Below, in pieces: positions 7,279 through 43,195 of a stretch of DNA of 64,000 nt. The DNA is from Adlercreutzia hattorii. Its GTDB lineage: Bacteria; Actinomycetota; Coriobacteriia; Coriobacteriales; Eggerthellaceae. The DNA is taken from the NCBI RefSeq assembly GCF_011405655.1, contig NZ_AP022829.1, positions 1,101,001-1,165,000 on the forward strand, given 5' to 3'. The first letter of the stretch is position 1. Each line of letters starts with the position of its first letter. The notes under the pieces were generated by a model. It had not been told where the DNA came from and did not search any database. It saw only the letters and a list, made by a program, of their open reading frames with translations. Position numbers and translations under genes: made by a program.

Positions 7279-7312
7279 AACGTTCGAAACCGGCTGTCTC
7301 CCGCGGTCGGGA

Positions 7313-7405
7313 GGGCAGACCAAGGTCTGCCCCTACGGGGTGTTGTGATAGGTTGTTCTGCGTTGCGCGAGCCTTCTATCCGTAGGGGCGGACCTTGGTC
7401 CGCCC
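7313..7405. repeat. Facing pair of palindromic repeat units between convergent genes
   Basis: Two related units face each other: 7313-7338 (GGGCAGACCAAGGTCTGCCC then CTACGG) and 7380-7405 (CCGTAG then GGGCGGACCTTGGTCCGCCC, sharing one G). Each is itself palindromic, and together they form a 26-base-arm inverted repeat with a 41-base spacer. It lies between the convergent stomatin-like and asnB genes, a typical site for REP-like elements that also act as bidirectional terminators. A third copy lies at 53513-53538. Confidence 0.75.
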
Positions 7406-7423
7406 TTGAAGCGTGGGAGGCAT

Positions 7424-9304
7424 TCAGCCGAAGTACTGCTCGTGCCAGATGAGGAAGCAGTAGGCTGACCAGATCTTCTTCATGTGGGAGCAAGCGCTGC
7501 GCTGGTGCTCGTCGAGCAGGGCATTCAAACGTTCGGTGTGGAAGAGGCGACGGGCGCGCTCGCTGCTCAGCACCTCGCGGACCTGGGCGTTCCACGGCTC
7601 TTCCCTCAGCCACTGGGCGAGCGGGGTGATGAAGCCCTGCTTGGGCATGGCGGCCGTGGCTTGCGGCAGCATGCGGGCCGCGGCGGCGCGCAGGGCGATC
7701 TTCGTCTCGTGGCGGCCGACGCGCTGGGCGGCGGGAAGCGTGCTCGCCAGGGCGAACACCTCGCGGTCGAGGAAGGGAACGCGCAGCTCCAGCGACGACG
7801 CCATGGACATCTTGTCCGCCTTCAGGAGGATGTCCTGCTGAAGCCAGGTGAGAATGTCGGCGGTCTGCATGGCCGTGACCTCGTCGGGCGCATCCCCACA
7901 CGCTTTCCCGCTGCCTACGATTTCCGCGAACAGGGGCGCTGTGAGCTCCCAGGGTGCCGGGGCCGCCGCGCATCGGGCGCCCACCTCCGGCGCCAAGAGC
8001 CCCAGCGCTTCGGCCCAGGCGAAATTGTACTCCAATCGGATATAGCGCTCGGGTAGCCCATGGGCCCCGCGCAAAAGGAAGCGCCGCCCGTGGGTGCCCT
8101 CGGGCAGATGCCGCGCGGCGGCGCTCGCGGCCCGGCGCACGGGTACGGGCACGGCCATGTAAGGCGCAAAGGCGAGGCACTCCTGGTAGTAGGGATAGCC
8201 GCCGAACAGCTCGTCGGCCCCTTCGCCCGACAGCACCACCTTCACCGACTCGGCGGCCATGGCGCACAGGTGGTACAGCGGCACCGCCGAGGGGTTCGGC
8301 AGAGGCTCGTCCATGGCGTACTGCACGGCGGGCACCGAGGCGAAGAACTGCTCGGCGCCGAGAATGCACCCCTCGTTCGGCAACCCGGTGGCCCGGGCGA
8401 AGGTTGCAGCGGCCTCCAATTCCGAAAAGCGCCCCTCGCCCCAGCCGATGGTGAACGTGCGCGCCTCCATGATGCGGGCGGCCTCCCGGGCCACGAGGCT
8501 GGAATCCACCCCGGCCGAGAGGAAACAGCCCACATCTACGTCGGCGATGGCATGGGCCGCCACCGACTCCCGCAAGGTAGCCTCGATGGCCTCGGCGCTC
8601 TCCTCCAGACTGCGGCTCGCATCGGGGACGAAGCGCGGGGCGAACCATCGGCCGCATTCGGCGCGGCCGTCGCGCCATCGCAGCCAATGGCCGGCGGGCA
8701 ACTTGCGGACGCCTTCGAACAGGGTCTCCTCGTCGGGCAGGTACTCCATGCACAGCCAATGGGCGAGTCGCCGCTCGTTCAGGCTCCGGTGCGCGCGCGG
8801 ATGCGTGATCAGCCCCTTGATCTCGGAGCCGAACAGGATGCGCTCGCCTTCCACGGCATAGTAGAGGGGCTTGATGCCGAAGGCGTCGCGCGCGCAGAAA
8901 AGCTCTCCTGTGGCTGGGCGATACAGAGCGAACGCGAACATGCCGCGCAAACGGTCGAGCACCCCTTCGCCCCACTGCTCGAACCCGTGGAGCATCACTT
9001 CCGCATCGCCCTGGGTGGAGAAGGTGTGACCTGCGGCGATCAGCTGCCGGCGTAGTTCCTGGTAGTTGTAGATTTCGCCGTTGAAGACGAGCACGAGCGA
9101 GCGATTCTCGTTATAGAGGGGCTGGTTCGCACCGGCCAGATCGATGATGGCCAGGCGCCGGAAGCCCAAGGCGGCGCGGCCGTCGCTGAAATACCCTTCC
9201 GAATCGGGCCCGCGATGGGCGATGGCATTGGCCATAGCGACGATGGTGGCGCGGTGGTCGTAAGTCTGGTCGTTCTCGTCGATAAAGCCGACAAAGCCGC
9301 ACAT
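7424..9304 (-). CDS. asnB: Asparagine synthase (glutamine-hydrolysing), AsnB/AsnH type
   Basis: This is a 626-residue class II amidotransferase. Cys2 (MCGFVG) is the N-terminal nucleophile of the glutaminase domain (about 1-210), and a PP-loop SAGVDSS at 263-269 starts the ATP-dependent synthetase domain. ATG 9304 follows AGGAAGGA on the minus strand. It amidates an aspartyl carboxylate through an acyl-adenylate. It lies 93 bases downstream of an aspartate racemase and an ATP-grasp ligase on the same strand, which suggests it may amidate D-Asp in a cell wall precursor, as AsnH does in lactococci, rather than only making free asparagine. Both roles remain possible. Confidence 0.88.
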   Translation of the reverse strand: MCGFVGFIDENDQTYDHRATIVAMANAIAHRGPDSEGYFSDGRAALGFRRLAIIDLAGANQPLYNENRSLVLVFNGEIYNYQELRRQLIAAGHTFSTQGDAEVMLHGFEQWGEGVLDRLRGMFAFALYRPATGELFCARDAFGIKPLYYAVEGERILFGSEIKGLITHPRAHRSLNERRLAHWLCMEYLPDEETLFEGVRKLPAGHWLRWRDGRAECGRWFAPRFVPDASRSLEESAEAIEATLRESVAAHAIADVDVGCFLSAGVDSSLVAREAARIMEARTFTIGWGEGRFSELEAAATFARATGLPNEGCILGAEQFFASVPAVQYAMDEPLPNPSAVPLYHLCAMAAESVKVVLSGEGADELFGGYPYYQECLAFAPYMAVPVPVRRAASAAARHLPEGTHGRRFLLRGAHGLPERYIRLEYNFAWAEALGLLAPEVGARCAAAPAPWELTAPLFAEIVGSGKACGDAPDEVTAMQTADILTWLQQDILLKADKMSMASSLELRVPFLDREVFALASTLPAAQRVGRHETKIALRAAAARMLPQATAAMPKQGFITPLAQWLREEPWNAQVREVLSSERARRLFHTERLNALLDEHQRSACSHMKKIWSAYCFLIWHEQYFG

Positions 9305-9397
9305 AAGGGATCCTTCCTGAAAGCTCGTGCCGAAAAACGTGGAAAACTTGCCAAGCTTCTGATCTGGTGATATCGAAGGAAATCTCAGGTCAAAAGG

Positions 9398-10129
9398 CTA
9401 GTTTCGAAGTGACAAGTTTTTCGAGGCTTTCGGCGGCCGCCCGGCACGCATGATGACGCAGTCGGCTAGTACGTCCAGGGCGTCTACCACGGGAAGTCCT
9501 GCCGCCCGCGTCACGCCGCCGAAAGCCAAGGACAGCTCGGTGCAGCCGAGCACGACGCCGTCGCAGCCCGCTGCGCGCAGCGGGGCCGCCAGCGCCTCGA
9601 GAGCCGCTGGCTCTACGAATCGCCCCGCCTTCACTTCGTCAAAGATGATGCGGTTCGCCCGCGCTTGCGTGGCGCTATCCGGGTAAAGACAGTCCACGCC
9701 GAGTCGTGCGGCCTCGTGCCCGTACAGATCGGCGGCCACGGTGCCGCTTGTGGCCAGCACGCCGATGCGCGCCAAGCCCACAGCGGATGCGGCGGCGGCA
9801 GTCTCGCGCACCATGTGGACGACGGGGATGCCCAAGGCGCCCTGCAGTTCGTCGAAGAAGCCGTGGGCCGTGTTGCAGGGCAGTGCCAGAAGATCGCAGC
9901 CGCAGGCTTCCAGAAGCTGACCGTCCTCGATAAGCGCCGCGAGGGGAGAGCGGTCGCTTCGCCCCAGCAGGAATGCCGTGCGATCGGGGATGGCCGTGTC
10001 GTTGAAGGCAAGGGTGCGCACGTGGTCCTGGTCGCAGCGGGCCTCGGTGCGCTCGACGAGCCGCTGCAGGAAGTAGGCCGTGGCCGCAGGTCCGGTGCCT
10101 CCGAGCACGCCTACCAAGCGCCCGCTCAT
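9398..10129 (-). CDS. Aspartate/glutamate racemase family protein, probable aspartate racemase
   Basis: The protein has 243 residues with an N-terminal GVLGGTGPAAT motif and the two catalytic cysteines of the family at Cys85 (PCNTAH) and Cys196 (GCTELS). The GGTGPAAT start and NTAH context fit the aspartate racemase subgroup better than MurI glutamate racemase. The start codon overlaps the stop of the upstream ATP-grasp gene by four bases (ATGA at 10126-10129), so the two are translationally coupled. Aspartate racemase next to an ATP-grasp ligase is the arrangement of the enterococcal D-aspartate bridge genes. Confidence 0.85.
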   Translation of the reverse strand: MSGRLVGVLGGTGPAATAYFLQRLVERTEARCDQDHVRTLAFNDTAIPDRTAFLLGRSDRSPLAALIEDGQLLEACGCDLLALPCNTAHGFFDELQGALGIPVVHMVRETAAAASAVGLARIGVLATSGTVAADLYGHEAARLGVDCLYPDSATQARANRIIFDEVKAGRFVEPAALEALAAPLRAAGCDGVVLGCTELSLAFGGVTRAAGLPVVDALDVLADCVIMRAGRPPKASKNLSLRN

Positions 10130-11526
10130 GATGCTGCTTTCGCGCGGGCCGTCAAGCCGTCTGACAGCGAAGGCTCGGAGGAGGCGGAGGCGACGCGCTC
10201 GCTGTCCCCGCAGGGGACGGTTCCCTTCTTGCCGCGACCGCTGAAAGGCTCGGCACCTTCCAAATCTTCCACTGCTTTCTCCCGGGCCCGCTTATCTGCC
10301 ATGGCGGCCCGGCAGGTCTTCCATTGGCGGAACGCGAAAACGAGCGGATACAGGCGCCGACGCAGGCTCTTCTCGGCCGGGTAGTCCAGCGGGTCGGCAT
10401 CGCGGCCCAGCGCGTACAGCCCCCGCACCTCCCGACGTAGGGCGTCGTCGCGGATGTAGTCGAGCAGGATGGCCTTGGGCGCCACGGTGTAGAGCGACTC
10501 GCCCCGGGCTATCGTGAGCCCTTCGGGCAGGGGTCGGCCCAACACGAGGTCGTCCATAAGCCATCGGGCCACGTTGTCGCCGGCGGCGGTCACGTAATAG
10601 TTGCTGCGGCCCAGGCGCGTGTTTATCTCGAAGAAGCGATGGCTGCCGTCGCGCGGATCCACTTTGATGTCGAAGTTCGCGAACCCGGTGTAGCCGACAG
10701 CTTCCAGAAGGCGCGCGGCCTCGGCCACGATCGTCTCGTCGGTGCGGCTCACGATGGCGAGCGGGTTGCCCACGCCCATGGGCCGCATATCTTCCAAAAG
10801 CGTCTGTCCGAAAGAGGTGAAGCGCACCTTTCCGTTCTGGTCGGAGTAGGTAGTGAGGATGCGCATGCTCGTGTCGTCGCCGGGGATCATCTCCTGGATG
10901 AGGAACTTCCCCTCGTAGCGGCTGCTCTGCACGGCCGCAAGCGTCGCCCGAAGCTCCGCCGCGTCGCGCAAGAAGAAGACCTTCTGCTTGCCGGGGAAGT
11001 CGGCATAGTGGTAGGCGGCCGAGGATGCGGGTTTTGCCACCACGGGGAAGGGGAAGGGAAGTATCACGGCGGCCGGGTCGTCGCCGTCTGCGCTGGCGTC
11101 GAACACCACGGTGCGCGGCGCGGGCACGCCGACTTCCGCGCACAGTTCGTAGAAGCGATCCTTCTCGGTGAGCCGGTTCAGCAGATCTTCGCCAATGTAG
11201 GGGATGATGAAGGACTTCTCCAGCACGGCGCGGTTCTCAACGATGAGCCGCACGTACCAATCGCCGCAGCCGAGCAGAAGCAGCGGGCGGTCGCTGAAGC
11301 ACTCGGCAGTGTTGGCCAAGGTGGAGAGGAGCACCGCCGGCCGCTCCAGGTGCGGCACCACGCGGTTCACGAGGATGGAGGAGTCGCCGCACATATGGCA
11401 CGCGGCCTGCGAGAGCACCAAGGGCACGATGCCGTAGGCCTCGTGGAAGGCCCGGGCGAGACTGTAGGCGCCGATGTCTCCGCCGAGGATCACCGGCAGC
11501 ACGTCGGGGGCATCGATATTCTCCAT
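10126..11526 (-). CDS. ATP-grasp ligase, candidate D-aspartate ligase for peptidoglycan
   Basis: This is a 466-residue ATP-grasp protein. The ATP-binding core runs from about residue 130 to 310 (FPVVAKPASS, KFLIQEMIPGDD, FFEINTRLGRSN). I chose ATG 11526 because AGGAG lies nine bases upstream; the ATG at 11535 has no spacing. The best functional model, from coupling to an aspartate racemase, is a D-aspartate:UDP-MurNAc-peptide ligase like enterococcal Asl(fm), which is similar in size and fold. A generic carboxylate-amine ligase is the alternative. The last 35 or so residues are low in complexity, encoded by a GTCCCC-GCA-GGGGAC hairpin-containing stretch, and look like a repeat-derived extension. 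Confidence 0.7.
   Translation of the reverse strand: MENIDAPDVLPVILGGDIGAYSLARAFHEAYGIVPLVLSQAACHMCGDSSILVNRVVPHLERPAVLLSTLANTAECFSDRPLLLLGCGDWYVRLIVENRAVLEKSFIIPYIGEDLLNRLTEKDRFYELCAEVGVPAPRTVVFDASADGDDPAAVILPFPFPVVAKPASSAAYHYADFPGKQKVFFLRDAAELRATLAAVQSSRYEGKFLIQEMIPGDDTSMRILTTYSDQNGKVRFTSFGQTLLEDMRPMGVGNPLAIVSRTDETIVAEAARLLEAVGYTGFANFDIKVDPRDGSHRFFEINTRLGRSNYYVTAAGDNVARWLMDDLVLGRPLPEGLTIARGESLYTVAPKAILLDYIRDDALRREVRGLYALGRDADPLDYPAEKSLRRRLYPLVFAFRQWKTCRAAMADKRAREKAVEDLEGAEPFSGRGKKGTVPCGDSERVASASSEPSLSDGLTARAKAAS
10204..10218. repeat. Short hairpin repeat in the 3' coding end of the ATP-grasp gene
   Basis: GTCCCC (10204-10209) and GGGGAC (10213-10218) flank a GCA loop, and the flanking GGTTCCCTTCTTGCC resembles dispersed GGGGACGGTTCC-type repeats. 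It encodes the KKGTVPCGDS part of the low-complexity tail. This suggests a repeat was captured into the reading frame. Confidence 0.45.
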
Positions 11527-11579
11527 TGAACTCATCTCCTGAACTCGGCTCGTCTCCGTTCAGGAGAAATGATAGGAAA

Positions 11580-11630
11580 GCCCTCCATTACGCTTCCCAT
11601 AGCAAATGCTGACGAAAGCGTAAGGAGGGC
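11580..11630 (-). promoter_or_regulatory. Leader stem-loop upstream of the ATP-grasp gene
   Basis: GCCCTCCATTACGCTT (11580-11595) pairs with AAGCGTAAGGAGGGC (11616-11630) with a single bulge, around a 20-base loop. Read on the minus strand it lies about 55 bases before the ATP-grasp start and is followed by TTTCCTATC. It may be an attenuator or processing structure, or the terminator of the upstream aminotransferase gene. No known riboswitch class is recognised. Confidence 0.5.
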
Positions 11631-11659
11631 GTAACTTTTCCTTACGGCGGGACGATGCA

Positions 11660-11777
11660 GCTCTCTGGCGGGGGCACACCCCGTGCTCAAGCAATGGCTC
11701 GCTCGGCGGAACAGGACATTTAGTCCTGTTCCGTTCGCTGCGCAACCTGCGCGCGGGGCGCGCCCCCGCCAGAGAGC
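11660..11777. repeat. Nested inverted-repeat element
   Basis: A perfect 16-base inverted repeat, GCTCTCTGGCGGGGGC (11660-11675) and its complement (11762-11777), encloses a second perfect hairpin, GGAACAGGAC (11708-11717) / GTCCTGTTCC (11723-11732). The 118-base unit lies between the aminotransferase and ATP-grasp genes. The nested design resembles a miniature palindromic element and could also end aminotransferase transcription. No ORF within it is credible. Confidence 0.65.
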
Positions 11778-11808
11778 CGCATCGCGAGCCCGTTCGGGGC
11801 CGAAAGCC

Positions 11809-13098
11809 TTATTCCTCGACGAGCTGCTCCAGGGCGGCCAGTTTCACGCAGCAGGTGAAGACATCCATGGCGGCGTCAAGCTCTTCCAAGGGCGGCAGCG
11901 AGGGTGCGATACGGATGTTGGAATCGGCCGGATCGTCGCCGTAGGGCCAGGTGGCGCCGGCACCCGTCATGGTAACACCAGCGTTCTTCGCCAGCTCCAC
12001 GATGCGGCGCGCCGTGCCAGCGGGCCCCTCGAAGCTCACGAAGTAGCCGCCGCGCGGGTTGGTCCATGTGGCGATGCCGGCCTCGGCAAGCTCCTCGGCC
12101 AGTTTCTTTTCGACGAGCTCGAACTTCGGGCCCATGAGCGCGCCGTGAGCGGCCATATGCTCGGGCAGGCGCGCGCCCTCTTCCAGGAAGCGGGCGTGAC
12201 GCAACTGGTTGAGCTTGTCGTGGCCGATGGCCTGAACGCCCAAGTGCCGCTTGATCTCGGCTATGTTGGCGGGGCTTGCGGCCAAAGCGGCCACGCCCGC
12301 GCCGGGGAAGGTGATCTTCGACGTGGAGCCGAACTTCAGATAGCGATCGGGGTTGCCCGCCTCGCGGCAGGCTTCGGCGATATCGAGCACGATGTCCTGC
12401 TCGGCCGGATCGCCGGAGAAATGGTGCACGGCGTAGGCGTTGTCCCAGAAGATGCGGAAATCGTCGGCGGCGCACTCCATGGCGGCGAGGCGGCGCACCG
12501 TCTCATCGGAGTAGGTGATGCCGGAGGGGTTCGAGTACTTCGGCACGCACCAGATGCCCTTGATGGCGTCGTCGGCGACGACGAGGCGCTCCACTTCTTC
12601 CATATCGGGGCCGTCCTCGCAAAGGGGGACGGGAATCATCTCGATGCCGAGATCTTCGCAAATAGAGAAGTGACGGTCGTAGCCGGGGACGGGGCAGAGC
12701 CATTTCACCTCGGGCAAGCGCCCCCAGGGCGTACTTCCCAGGGCCCCGAACACCAGGTAGCGCACCATGGCGTCGTACATGGCCGTGAGGCTCGCATTGC
12801 CGAGCACGATGACGTTCTCTGGCTCATCGTCCAGAAGCGCCGCCATGAGCCGCTTCGCCTCGGGGATGCCGTCGAGCACGCCGTAGTTGCGGCAGTCGGT
12901 GCCGTCCTCGGCGGCAAGGTCGGCTTCGGAGTCCAGCACGTCCAGCATAGGCAGGGACAGCTCCAGCTGTGCGGCCGAGGGCTTGCCGCGGGCCATGTTC
13001 AGCTTGAGGCCCCGGGCCGCCATCTCGCCGTAGCGGGCGCGCACCTCGGCGAGCTCGGCCTCCAATTCCGCCTTGGACATCTCTGCATAGCGCGGCAT
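11809..13098 (-). CDS. Aspartate aminotransferase, class Ic type
   Basis: This 429-residue PLP enzyme starts at ATG 13098, preceded by AAAGGACGG; an upstream in-frame ATG at 13134 lacks a site. The N-terminus (LKLNMARGKPS, then NYGVLDGIPEAKRL) and the PLP-lysine motif GSTSKITFPGAG match the aspartate aminotransferase Ic group (PF12897), typified by actinobacterial AspB. It interconverts oxaloacetate/glutamate with aspartate/2-oxoglutarate. Its place directly upstream of ligase, racemase and amidotransferase genes on the same strand suggests that it feeds L-Asp to that module, although a 282-base structured gap separates them. Confidence 0.82.
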   Translation of the reverse strand: MPRYAEMSKAELEAELAEVRARYGEMAARGLKLNMARGKPSAAQLELSLPMLDVLDSEADLAAEDGTDCRNYGVLDGIPEAKRLMAALLDDEPENVIVLGNASLTAMYDAMVRYLVFGALGSTPWGRLPEVKWLCPVPGYDRHFSICEDLGIEMIPVPLCEDGPDMEEVERLVVADDAIKGIWCVPKYSNPSGITYSDETVRRLAAMECAADDFRIFWDNAYAVHHFSGDPAEQDIVLDIAEACREAGNPDRYLKFGSTSKITFPGAGVAALAASPANIAEIKRHLGVQAIGHDKLNQLRHARFLEEGARLPEHMAAHGALMGPKFELVEKKLAEELAEAGIATWTNPRGGYFVSFEGPAGTARRIVELAKNAGVTMTGAGATWPYGDDPADSNIRIAPSLPPLEELDAAMDVFTCCVKLAALEQLVEE

Positions 13099-13233
13099 AT
13101 TCCGTCCTTTCGCCGTAAAACTGCTCGTCTGCATAAGATACGGAGTGTCACTCCATCGCGGTAAAGTATAATCCCAAAGGTCAATGAAACGACACGGAAT
13201 ATGGCGCTTCGCAAGAATGGCTGGCCATACGGT

Positions 13234-16269: not shown

Positions 16270-17439
16270 CTAATAGCGGGTATAAATCATGCCGGAATGC
16301 ACGGCGGAGATCTTCACGACGTCGCCGGTGCGCGGCGCGTGGATCATCTGGCCGTCGCCGATGTAGATGCCGCAATGGTGGTCGTTGCAGCAGATGTCGC
16401 CCGGCTTGGGGTTGGAGACGCGCGTGTAGCCCATGAAGCTGGCGGCGGTGCCCAGGCGGCTGTGACGGCCGAGCAGGCAGTAGCTCACCAGACCGGAGCA
16501 ATCGTAGGAATCCGGTCCCACGGCGCCCCAGGAATAGGGCTTGCCCAGCTCGCCGTAAGCGCGGTCGACGGCCGTGCCGCCGACGGTCTGGGGCTTCGAG
16601 TTGTTCGACGAGCCACCGCCGGAACTGGAGCCGCCGCTCGAGCTGCCGCCGGAATTGCCGCCGGAGCCGGAGCCGCCGCCCGAGTTTCCACCGGAGTTGC
16701 CGCCGGAATTGCTCTGCTGACGGCGCTCTTCCTCCTCGGCCTGGCGACGGGCCTCTTCCTCGGCCGCCTGGGCGGCAGCCAAAGCCGCAGCCTCGCGGGC
16801 GGCCTCTTCCTCGGCGAGAAGCTGAGCCGCTTCCTCGGATAGGGAGTTGTAGGTTTCCTCCATCTGGGAGACGAGGCTCTCGGCCTCCTTCTTGACGGCC
16901 TCGGCCTCCTCGGCCTTCTGGGCGGCGACGTTGCGCTGCTCCTCGTAGACGGCCTTCTCAGATTCCACCTCGGAGCGCAGGGTCTTGGTTTCCTCCACCA
17001 TGTCGGCGTCGTTCTGGTTCATATCGTTCAGGAGATCCCAGTTCGAGGCGAAGGCCTGGAACGTGGTGGCTCCCAGAAGAAGATCGAGGAACGTAGACGA
17101 GCCGGAACGGTACATGGAGCGGGCGCGGTTGCCGAGCTTGTCCTGCAGCTCGCTGATGCGCGAGGAAGCGGAATCGATGCGACCCTGAGCCTCGTCCATG
17201 CGGGCCTGGGCATCGTCGCGCTCGGTTTCAGCCGCATAGAGGGAGACCTCGGCGCGGTCGAGCTTCTCCTGCATGGCGTTGAGCTTCTCAAGTGCCGCGT
17301 TGGCCTCGGCCTGCTTCTCGGCGGCCGTGACGGCGTGAGCCTTGGCGGGCATGAGCGGGGGCAGGCACAGCGAGATGCCGAAAGCGGCCGCCGTGCCGAC
17401 GAAGGCGCGTCTGCTGAAGGGACGTGTATGCTCACTCAT
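16270..17439 (-). CDS. Secreted NlpC/P60 peptidoglycan endopeptidase with coiled-coil N-terminus
   Basis: The protein has 389 residues. ATG 17439 is preceded by AGGAGG and followed by a Tat-like signal (RRAFVG, hydrophobic stretch, AKAHA). A long alpha-helical coiled coil (about 35-230) resembles the regulatory region of RipA/CwlO-type hydrolases. A Gly/Ser/Asn-rich linker leads to the C-terminal NlpC/P60 domain with Cys314 (YDCSG), His355 (HCGIYIG) and His367 (HAPRTGD) as the likely catalytic triad. It should cut stem peptides during cell separation, probably activated by an FtsEX-like partner elsewhere. Confidence 0.9.
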   Translation of the reverse strand: MSEHTRPFSRRAFVGTAAAFGISLCLPPLMPAKAHAVTAAEKQAEANAALEKLNAMQEKLDRAEVSLYAAETERDDAQARMDEAQGRIDSASSRISELQDKLGNRARSMYRSGSSTFLDLLLGATTFQAFASNWDLLNDMNQNDADMVEETKTLRSEVESEKAVYEEQRNVAAQKAEEAEAVKKEAESLVSQMEETYNSLSEEAAQLLAEEEAAREAAALAAAQAAEEEARRQAEEEERRQQSNSGGNSGGNSGGGSGSGGNSGGSSSGGSSSGGGSSNNSKPQTVGGTAVDRAYGELGKPYSWGAVGPDSYDCSGLVSYCLLGRHSRLGTAASFMGYTRVSNPKPGDICCNDHHCGIYIGDGQMIHAPRTGDVVKISAVHSGMIYTRY

Positions 17440-17764
17440 ATAAAAGTATCCTCCTGGTTGAGCATCTGGTGCGTTGGGGCAAACTAGCTTCGTATCATAG
17501 CACGGATGGCGCCTCTTCACGACCCCCACAGAAGGGATTCACAAGCCGACCTCAGCCCATCCGCGCGGGAATTCGCGCCGTTCGCGGCCGAAAAAAATCA
17601 TGAGTGAAGGAGGGTTTCCATACCTTGGGGGAGAGGTGCGCTTTCTCATCCAACATATGGTGTCCAAGTGTCTCTTTATATAGTAAGAAGAAAAGACGGT
17701 CGCCGGGTTCCTCGTTCGAGGTTGGGGAGGAATCGTGGAGACACGCCCGGGGGCGTGTAAATGG
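17440..17764. other. Intergenic region, no gene
   Basis: This gap separates the leftward hydrolase gene from the rightward tRNA/tuf operon. A leftward -10-like TATGAT is seen at 17494-17499 (minus strand), plausible for the hydrolase, but no good -35 is visible. The part 17540-17760 shows no credible ORF, known RNA or strong repeat. Confidence 0.5.
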
Positions 17765-41704: not shown

Positions 41705-43195
41705 ATGACCAAGACCTGCTCAGAGCTCTTCCAAGGGATGGATTGCACCATCATCGGCAACGGGAACGAGGAGGTGGCAGGGCTGGCGTTCCGCAGCGAC
41801 GAGGTCGCGCCGGGCGATATGTTCTTCTGCATCGTCGGCACCGTCGTCGACGGCCACTCCTTCGCCCAGGACGCCATCGACCGCGGGGCCACCTCCCTGG
41901 TGGCCGAGCGCAAGGTGTACCTGGCCGATGCCACCGATGTCACCGAGGTCGTCGTCTCCGACTCGCGCAAGGCCATGGCCTACGCCTCGGCGAACTACTA
42001 CGACAACCCCTCCCGGGCCTTCTCGCTCGTGGGCATCACGGGCACCAACGGCAAGACCACCACGACCTACCTGGTGGAGCACATCGCGAGCGTGGCCGGC
42101 AACCGCTGCGGCGTTATCGGCACCGTCGGCAACAAGATCGCGGGCGTCATGGAGCACGCCGAGCGCACCACGCCGGAGTCGCCCGACCTGCAGAAGCTGT
42201 TCGCACGGATGCGCGACGCGGGCTGCACCGTGGTGGCCATGGAGGTGAGTTCGCACGCGCTCGATCTGCGCCGCACCTGGGACACCGACTTCGCCGTGAC
42301 GGCGTTCACGAACCTCACCCAGGACCACCTGGACTACCACCACACCTTCGACGACTACTTCGAGGCCAAGGCGCTTCTGTTCTCGAAGGACTACCCGGCT
42401 CGCCGCGTCATCTCCATCGACGGCTCCTGGGGGCGCGAGCTTTTGCGCCGCTGCACCGCGGCCGGCGACGAGGTCATCACCACGGGATTCGACGTCTCCG
42501 CCCAGATCCATCCGGTGGAGGTCACCTACGAGGCCGCCCGCACCAAGGCGGTGCTCGAGGTGCGCGGGACGCGCATCGCGGTGGAGTACCCGCTCGTGGG
42601 GCGCTTCAACGTGGAGAACGTCATGACGGCCTTCGGCTGCGCGTTGGCCTTGGGAATTCCGACCCAGATCATCGCCGAGGCCCTGGCCACCATGCCGGCG
42701 GTTCCCGGCCGCCTGGAGCGCGTGCGCCCTGCGGTGGACGCACCGGTCTCCGTCTACGTGGACTACGCCCACACCCCCGACGCGCTCACCAAGGCCATCG
42801 CCTCCATCAAGGAGCTCTCGGGCGGACGCACCATCGTCGTCTTCGGCTGCGGCGGCAACCGCGACGCCACCAAGCGCCCCATCATGGGAGCTGCGGCGCT
42901 GGCCGCCGACTACGCCGTGGTGACGAGCGACAACCCGCGCCACGAGGAGCCCGATGCCATCATCGCCGATATCGTGGCGGGCATGGAAGACGCCGAGCGC
43001 TTCACCGTGGAGCCCGATCGCCGTAGTGCCATCGCGGCCGCCATCGCGCTCGCACGCCCGGGCGATGCCATTCTCGTGGCCGGCAAAGGCCATGAGGACT
43101 ACCAGCTCGTGGGCGATGAAGTGCTCTCCTTCGACGACCGCGTTGTGGCGGCCGAGGAGTTGGAGCGCGCCTTCGGCGGTGCGTGTTCGGACTAG
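41705..43195 (+). CDS. murE: UDP-MurNAc-tripeptide synthetase MurE
   Basis: The 496-residue Mur ligase has the ATP loop GTNGKTTTTYL (about 111-121). Residues 409-412 read DNPR, the motif that in characterised MurE enzymes selects meso-diaminopimelate instead of lysine. It adds the third stem residue in the cytosol. The motif therefore predicts mDAP-type peptidoglycan in this organism. It is followed directly by murF. Confidence 0.95.
   Translation: MTKTCSELFQGMDCTIIGNGNEEVAGLAFRSDEVAPGDMFFCIVGTVVDGHSFAQDAIDRGATSLVAERKVYLADATDVTEVVVSDSRKAMAYASANYYDNPSRAFSLVGITGTNGKTTTTYLVEHIASVAGNRCGVIGTVGNKIAGVMEHAERTTPESPDLQKLFARMRDAGCTVVAMEVSSHALDLRRTWDTDFAVTAFTNLTQDHLDYHHTFDDYFEAKALLFSKDYPARRVISIDGSWGRELLRRCTAAGDEVITTGFDVSAQIHPVEVTYEAARTKAVLEVRGTRIAVEYPLVGRFNVENVMTAFGCALALGIPTQIIAEALATMPAVPGRLERVRPAVDAPVSVYVDYAHTPDALTKAIASIKELSGGRTIVVFGCGGNRDATKRPIMGAAALAADYAVVTSDNPRHEEPDAIIADIVAGMEDAERFTVEPDRRSAIAAAIALARPGDAILVAGKGHEDYQLVGDEVLSFDDRVVAAEELERAFGGACSD

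Follow-up and report, generated by a model that had tools for sequence, protein, structure and literature searches.

A predicted D-aspartate cell wall module of ligase, racemase and AsnB genes in Adlercreutzia hattorii

Genes at the locus

The window, i.e. the whole stretch of 64,000 nucleotides that was analyzed, is part of the complete 2.91-Mb genome of Adlercreutzia hattorii. Within it, four ORFs lie on the reverse (−) strand with the transcription order aspartate aminotransferase (AspAT), ATP-grasp ligase, racemase and AsnB. These ORFs, the gap which follows the first of them and a MurE gene situated approximately 30 kb from the ligase cluster are as follows:

11809..13134, − strand: aspartate aminotransferase type Ic (AspAT), 441 aa
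11536..11808, − strand: gap of 273 bp between AspAT and the ligase, with a dispersed palindromic repeat
10126..11535, − strand: ATP-grasp ligase, D-aspartate-ligase (Asl)-like, 469 aa
9398..10129, − strand: Asp/Glu-type amino acid racemase, 243 aa, with Cys85 and Cys196
7424..9304, − strand: AsnB/AsnH-type glutamine-dependent amidotransferase, 626 aa, with an MCG N-terminus
41705..43195, + strand: MurE with a DNPR motif

The four same-strand genes claimed in a preliminary description of this DNA are present, with their names backed by family matches, as are the ATGA at which ligase and racemase overlap and the two cysteines of the racemase. The AspAT gene of that description also stands, but its end at 13098 was found to be an internal Met, with the ORF reaching 13134. 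The stop of the ligase and the start of the racemase overlap by 4 bp, with a spacing of 93 bp between the racemase and AsnB. The order of the locus is kept in other Adlercreutzia and is therefore not due to chance.

The AspAT protein matched PF12897 with 547.7 bits and NF053594 with 624 bits (cut-off 435), and is related to solved actinobacterial enzymes. The palindromic repeat between this gene and the ligase has a core at approximately 11666–11771. Its predicted hairpin is very strong (z −12), and there are about 20 further matches to it in the genome, most of them at 80–94% identity. As AspAT adjoins the ligase only within the genus Adlercreutzia and is separated from it by this repeat-containing gap, it was rejected as a member of the module. 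The proposal of a complete supply-to-product set that included it was accordingly not supported, and AspAT is probably a housekeeping neighbor which belongs to the cluster by position only.

By sequence, the ligase was matched only by weak ATP-grasp models (PF02786, 23.3 bits). No D-aspartate ligase model of Pfam or NCBIfam matched it or the ligase of Latilactobacillus curvatus, and a PDB sequence search gave no clear relative. Its AlphaFold2 model (pLDDT 86.7) is clearly of the ATP-grasp fold and is confident to approximately residue 427, with residues 428–469 or so being of very low confidence. Among the nearest solved folds was PylC (Z 24, about 13% identity); L-amino acid ligases such as 3vot (Z 21) and further ATP-grasp enzymes were also near. 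PylC resembles the role proposed here in that it joins a D-amino acid (D-ornithine) to the epsilon-amine of lysine, whereas it differs in belonging to the pyrrolysine pathway; a fold common to the model and PylC would not prove a common reaction. Residues K125, K168, D289, E303, N305 and R307 are invariant or nearly so across the ligases. The closest named relatives are those of Adlercreutzia muris and A. caecimuris (77–78%), with the ligase of Olsenella uli at 38.5%.

The racemase matched PF01177 with 139.8 bits and TIGR00035 with 192 bits (cut-off 93.1). Its catalytic cysteines lie in the motifs PCNTAH (Cys85) and GCTE (Cys196), it was aligned to the aspartate racemase 1jfl and its best matches of known structure carry the name aspartate racemase. 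It also passes the NCBIfam model of the cysteate racemase CuyB with 202 bits (cut-off 190). Ligase-adjacent racemases of other organisms score similarly against this model (Isoptericola 237, Subdoligranulum 221 and L. curvatus 185, the last just below the cut-off). CuyB therefore does not discriminate, and an identity as cysteate racemase was dropped.

The AsnB protein (TIGR01536, 469.5 bits, cut-off 267.1; PF13537 and PF00733) starts with MCGFVGF and comprises a Cys2 glutaminase domain and a synthetase domain. It is the sole full Asn_synthase match in the genome, in which AsnRS is present and a search for AsnA found none, and it may therefore serve L-Asn synthesis. AsnH of L. lactis and L. 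casei is likewise a class II amidotransferase with Cys2 and of the same length as the window protein; that of L. casei has 625 aa, and its amide acceptor is wall material and not aspartate (PMC3885529). The window AsnB, which is linked to a ligase, differs from AsnH in being the only asparagine synthetase of its genome.

Recurrence of the gene set and reported wall types

All four genes and their outer neighbors are kept in A. caecimuris, A. muris and an Enterorhabdus MAG. Outside the genus, AspAT is gone from the immediate neighborhood, and the ligase, racemase and AsnB occur together in several Eggerthellaceae (loci L100, L099, L102, L083, L092 and L094). The same three genes were found in the order of the window in a Subdoligranulum record and in the order AsnB, ligase, racemase in a Clostridia MAG, and the trio is thus present in at least three separate clades of the ligase tree, namely Adlercreutzia, a second Eggerthellaceae clade and Clostridia. 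Partial sets were also seen: two relatives (G181 and G276) have the ligase and racemase and no AsnB, Isoptericola has two tandem ligases with a racemase, and Brachybacterium has two tandem ligases with no racemase or AsnB nearby. In the E. lenta group (L080, L082, L084, L090, L093, L095 and relatives), the ligase and AsnB are adjacent but divergent, and for the most part no racemase of the window type was found in the genome. The AsnB proteins that are linked to a ligase constitute a subfamily of their own, separate from nine unlinked AsnBs of Eggerthellaceae, with E. lenta having one AsnB of the linked subfamily and one of the unlinked type. It should also be noted that the tandem ligases of Isoptericola and Brachybacterium (L005, L021, L024 and relatives) may add two successive bridge residues.

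Among 298 Coriobacteriia genomes, 177 were counted as ligase-positive on the basis of strong matches, with those of E > 1e-20 left out. Every racemase-positive genome also carries the ligase (82/82), and the racemase was present in 0/121 of the genomes that lack the ligase (Fisher p ~1e-23, with kinship ignored). One genome with a weaker racemase match (G259, 1.9e-27) and no ligase was left out of this count.

The homology between the ligase of the window and those ligases of Lactobacillaceae that are found in racemase or AsnB contexts covers the entire protein (E 3e-64 to 1e-73), and the ATP-grasp signature N305-x-R307 is common to both. In L. curvatus, the ligase (31% to the window ligase) adjoins a racemase (38%), and in L. 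crispatus the ligase (34%) adjoins an AsnB (37%). These two ligases are presumably orthologs of AslA, to judge from context and homology rather than from a match to a characterized protein. In L. lactis, aslA is in one operon with racD, and the D-Asp is amidated by AsnH once it has been ligated (PMC4155827). The AslA/Aslfm-RacD arrangement of lactococci, lactobacilli and Enterococcus faecium has an aspartate-type racemase adjacent to the ligase, as does the window. However, the identity to these systems is only 31–34% and was obtained through the Lactobacillaceae homologs rather than the Aslfm sequence, the acceptor in Adlercreutzia would be meso-DAP instead of L-Lys or L-Orn, and AsnB lies in the same gene string.

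Reported wall types fit the gene content in some cases and not in others. Olsenella uli, with a wall reported as L-Orn-D-Asp, has a ligase and racemase side by side, approximately 270 bp apart. The wall of E. lenta has been reported as A1gamma with meso-DAP, and its genome has the ligase and AsnB side by side and no racemase; the ligase alone therefore does not mean D-Asp. For Atopobium parvulum, an L-Lys-D-Asp wall has been reported, and no ligase of this family was found in its genome (L183, G082), nor any racemase among the matches listed. It follows that either another route to D-Asp exists, such as a D-Asp ligase of a different kind, or the wall report is wrong. In view of E. lenta and A. 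parvulum, equating the ligase with a D-Asp bridge was judged too simple a rule and rejected. Outside the Coriobacteriia, Xylanimonas, from the family of Isoptericola, has an L-Lys-D-Asp wall, the walls of Actinotalea have bridges of Glu or Asp, varying, and those of Brachybacterium are of type A4gamma with meso-DAP. As the wall of B. faecium is reported to hold meso-DAP, Ala and Glu only, members of the ligase family can probably use D-Glu.

Predicted function of the gene set

The DNPR motif in MurE marks the addition of meso-DAP. The genus Adlercreutzia has been described with diaminopimelic acid in its wall (PMC6113628). Together, the motif and this description point to meso-DAP at position 3 of the host peptidoglycan. 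The predicted wall is therefore one with meso-DAP and a D-Asp/D-Asn appendage, i.e. of the A4gamma kind. The literature search gave DAP at genus level only, with no wall amino acid ratios found for Adlercreutzia and no paper found that links Asl to Eggerthellaceae. Brachybacterium, a genus with meso-DAP and A4gamma walls, carries ligases of the window family, which makes meso-DAP plausible as an acceptor. It differs from the window in having its ligases in tandem, in the lack of a nearby racemase or AsnB and in the bridge residue of B. faecium, which is reported to be Glu and not Asp.

It is considered likely that the ligase, racemase and AsnB represent a D-Asp module which acts on a wall precursor with meso-DAP, and for which an A4gamma-like D-Asx bridge is predicted. 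The racemase would convert L-Asp to D-Asp, a carboxyl of which would be activated with ATP by the ligase and joined to the free amine of meso-DAP in the cytoplasmic peptidoglycan precursor. The ligase would act on the diamino acid of UDP-MurNAc-pentapeptide. AsnB would then convert the ligated D-Asp to D-Asn by amidation, in the manner of lactococcal AsnH, and the resulting wall would contain meso-DAP with D-Asp/D-Asn as a side chain or cross-bridge (A4gamma-like). In this scheme, D-Asp as substrate, the acceptor, the amidation of D-Asp over another wall carboxyl and the cross-linking are all predicted steps. The core idea of the preliminary description, in which a racemase, a D-Asp-type ligase and an amidotransferase work on a wall precursor, is hence retained, with substrate and product as predictions. 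It is favored by the recurrence of the trio, the homology to Lactobacillus ligases, the co-occurrence of ligase and racemase and the wall of O. uli; E. lenta and A. parvulum do not conform to a simple rule.

The role of AsnB is where other explanations come closest. It could be that AsnB amidates meso-DAP, as do AsnB1 of L. plantarum and LtsA, and not the D-Asp of a bridge. In favor of this are the DAP-type wall, the known activity of AsnB1 on meso-DAP (PMC4155827) and the fact that E. lenta keeps the linked type of AsnB without the racemase. The same subfamily of AsnB, however, adjoins the ligase of L. crispatus, which belongs to a group where the walls are mostly Lys-D-Asp/D-Asn and thus without DAP, and amidation of meso-DAP in place of D-Asp is therefore held to be doubtful, although the sequence itself cannot tell D-Asp from meso-DAP as the target of AsnB. 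A further explanation would have AsnB as an L-asparagine synthetase fed by the adjoining AspAT, with a wall role left for the ligase and racemase only. That AsnB is the only full Asn_synthase match, with AsnRS and without AsnA in the genome, speaks for this, as do G181 and G276, the relatives which keep the ligase and racemase without AsnB. Set against it are the renewed linkage of AsnB to the ligase in Clostridia, L. crispatus and relatives of E. lenta and the separate subfamily of linked AsnBs, of which E. lenta has one beside one of the other type. A role restricted to L-Asn is accordingly judged unlikely, and it should be noted that the L-Asn and wall roles of AsnB are not mutually exclusive.

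The cargo of the ligase may also be questioned, in that it could be another D-amino acid such as D-Glu, or the racemase could act on a different acidic amino acid, e.g. cysteate, in which case the bridge would not be D-Asp. The score of the racemase above the CuyB cut-off (202 against 190 bits), the Brachybacterium relatives without a nearby racemase, with the wall composition reported for B. faecium, and the ligase of E. lenta without a racemase are all in keeping with this. It is nevertheless quite improbable for the window, as the CuyB model is not discriminating and the best solved relatives of the racemase are those named as aspartate racemases, and a D-Glu cargo would be supplied by the second racemase of the genome, leaving that of the window unexplained. 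Alternatively, the ligase could resemble bacterial L-amino acid ligases and produce a small peptide or conjugate with no link to the wall; the likeness of the predicted fold to these and other ATP-grasp enzymes speaks for this. The ligase family occurs, however, together with walls that have D-acidic bridges (O. uli, Brachybacterium and lactobacilli), and NlpC/P60 hydrolase genes lie close to ligase homologs in several relatives; this explanation is seen as very improbable.

The component genes of the D-Asp module are of known kinds. It is evenly balanced whether an undescribed type of wall, with meso-DAP and an amidated D-Asp (D-Asn) bridge made from one operon, exists in Adlercreutzia and a number of related gut Actinobacteria. 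A D-Asn bridge would be unexpected, as the type species of the family is described as directly cross-linked A1gamma, and it bears on whether direct cross-linking through meso-DAP was over-generalized for these gut bacteria. It also bears on the muropeptides shed by a common gut genus, and a D-Asn bridge, if present, would alter those that NOD1 and other host sensors encounter. The ligase, with or without the racemase and with or without AsnB, could serve as a genomic marker for predicting D-acidic bridges in Actinobacteria.

Other features around the cluster

A gene for an NlpC/P60 wall hydrolase lies nearby at window positions 16270–17529. The scan for promoters and terminators gave three promoter-like sites against 0.6 expected, which were given no evidential weight, and found no terminator. 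A hairpin was seen 3' of AsnB (7310–7407), between convergent genes; its Rfam matches were to microRNAs only, all below threshold, and were taken as chance. Upstream of the ligase start, an AGGAG resembling a ribosome binding site lies within an inverted repeat (CTCCTGAAC...GTTCAGGAG, window 11530–11570), and this repeat could have an effect on translation.
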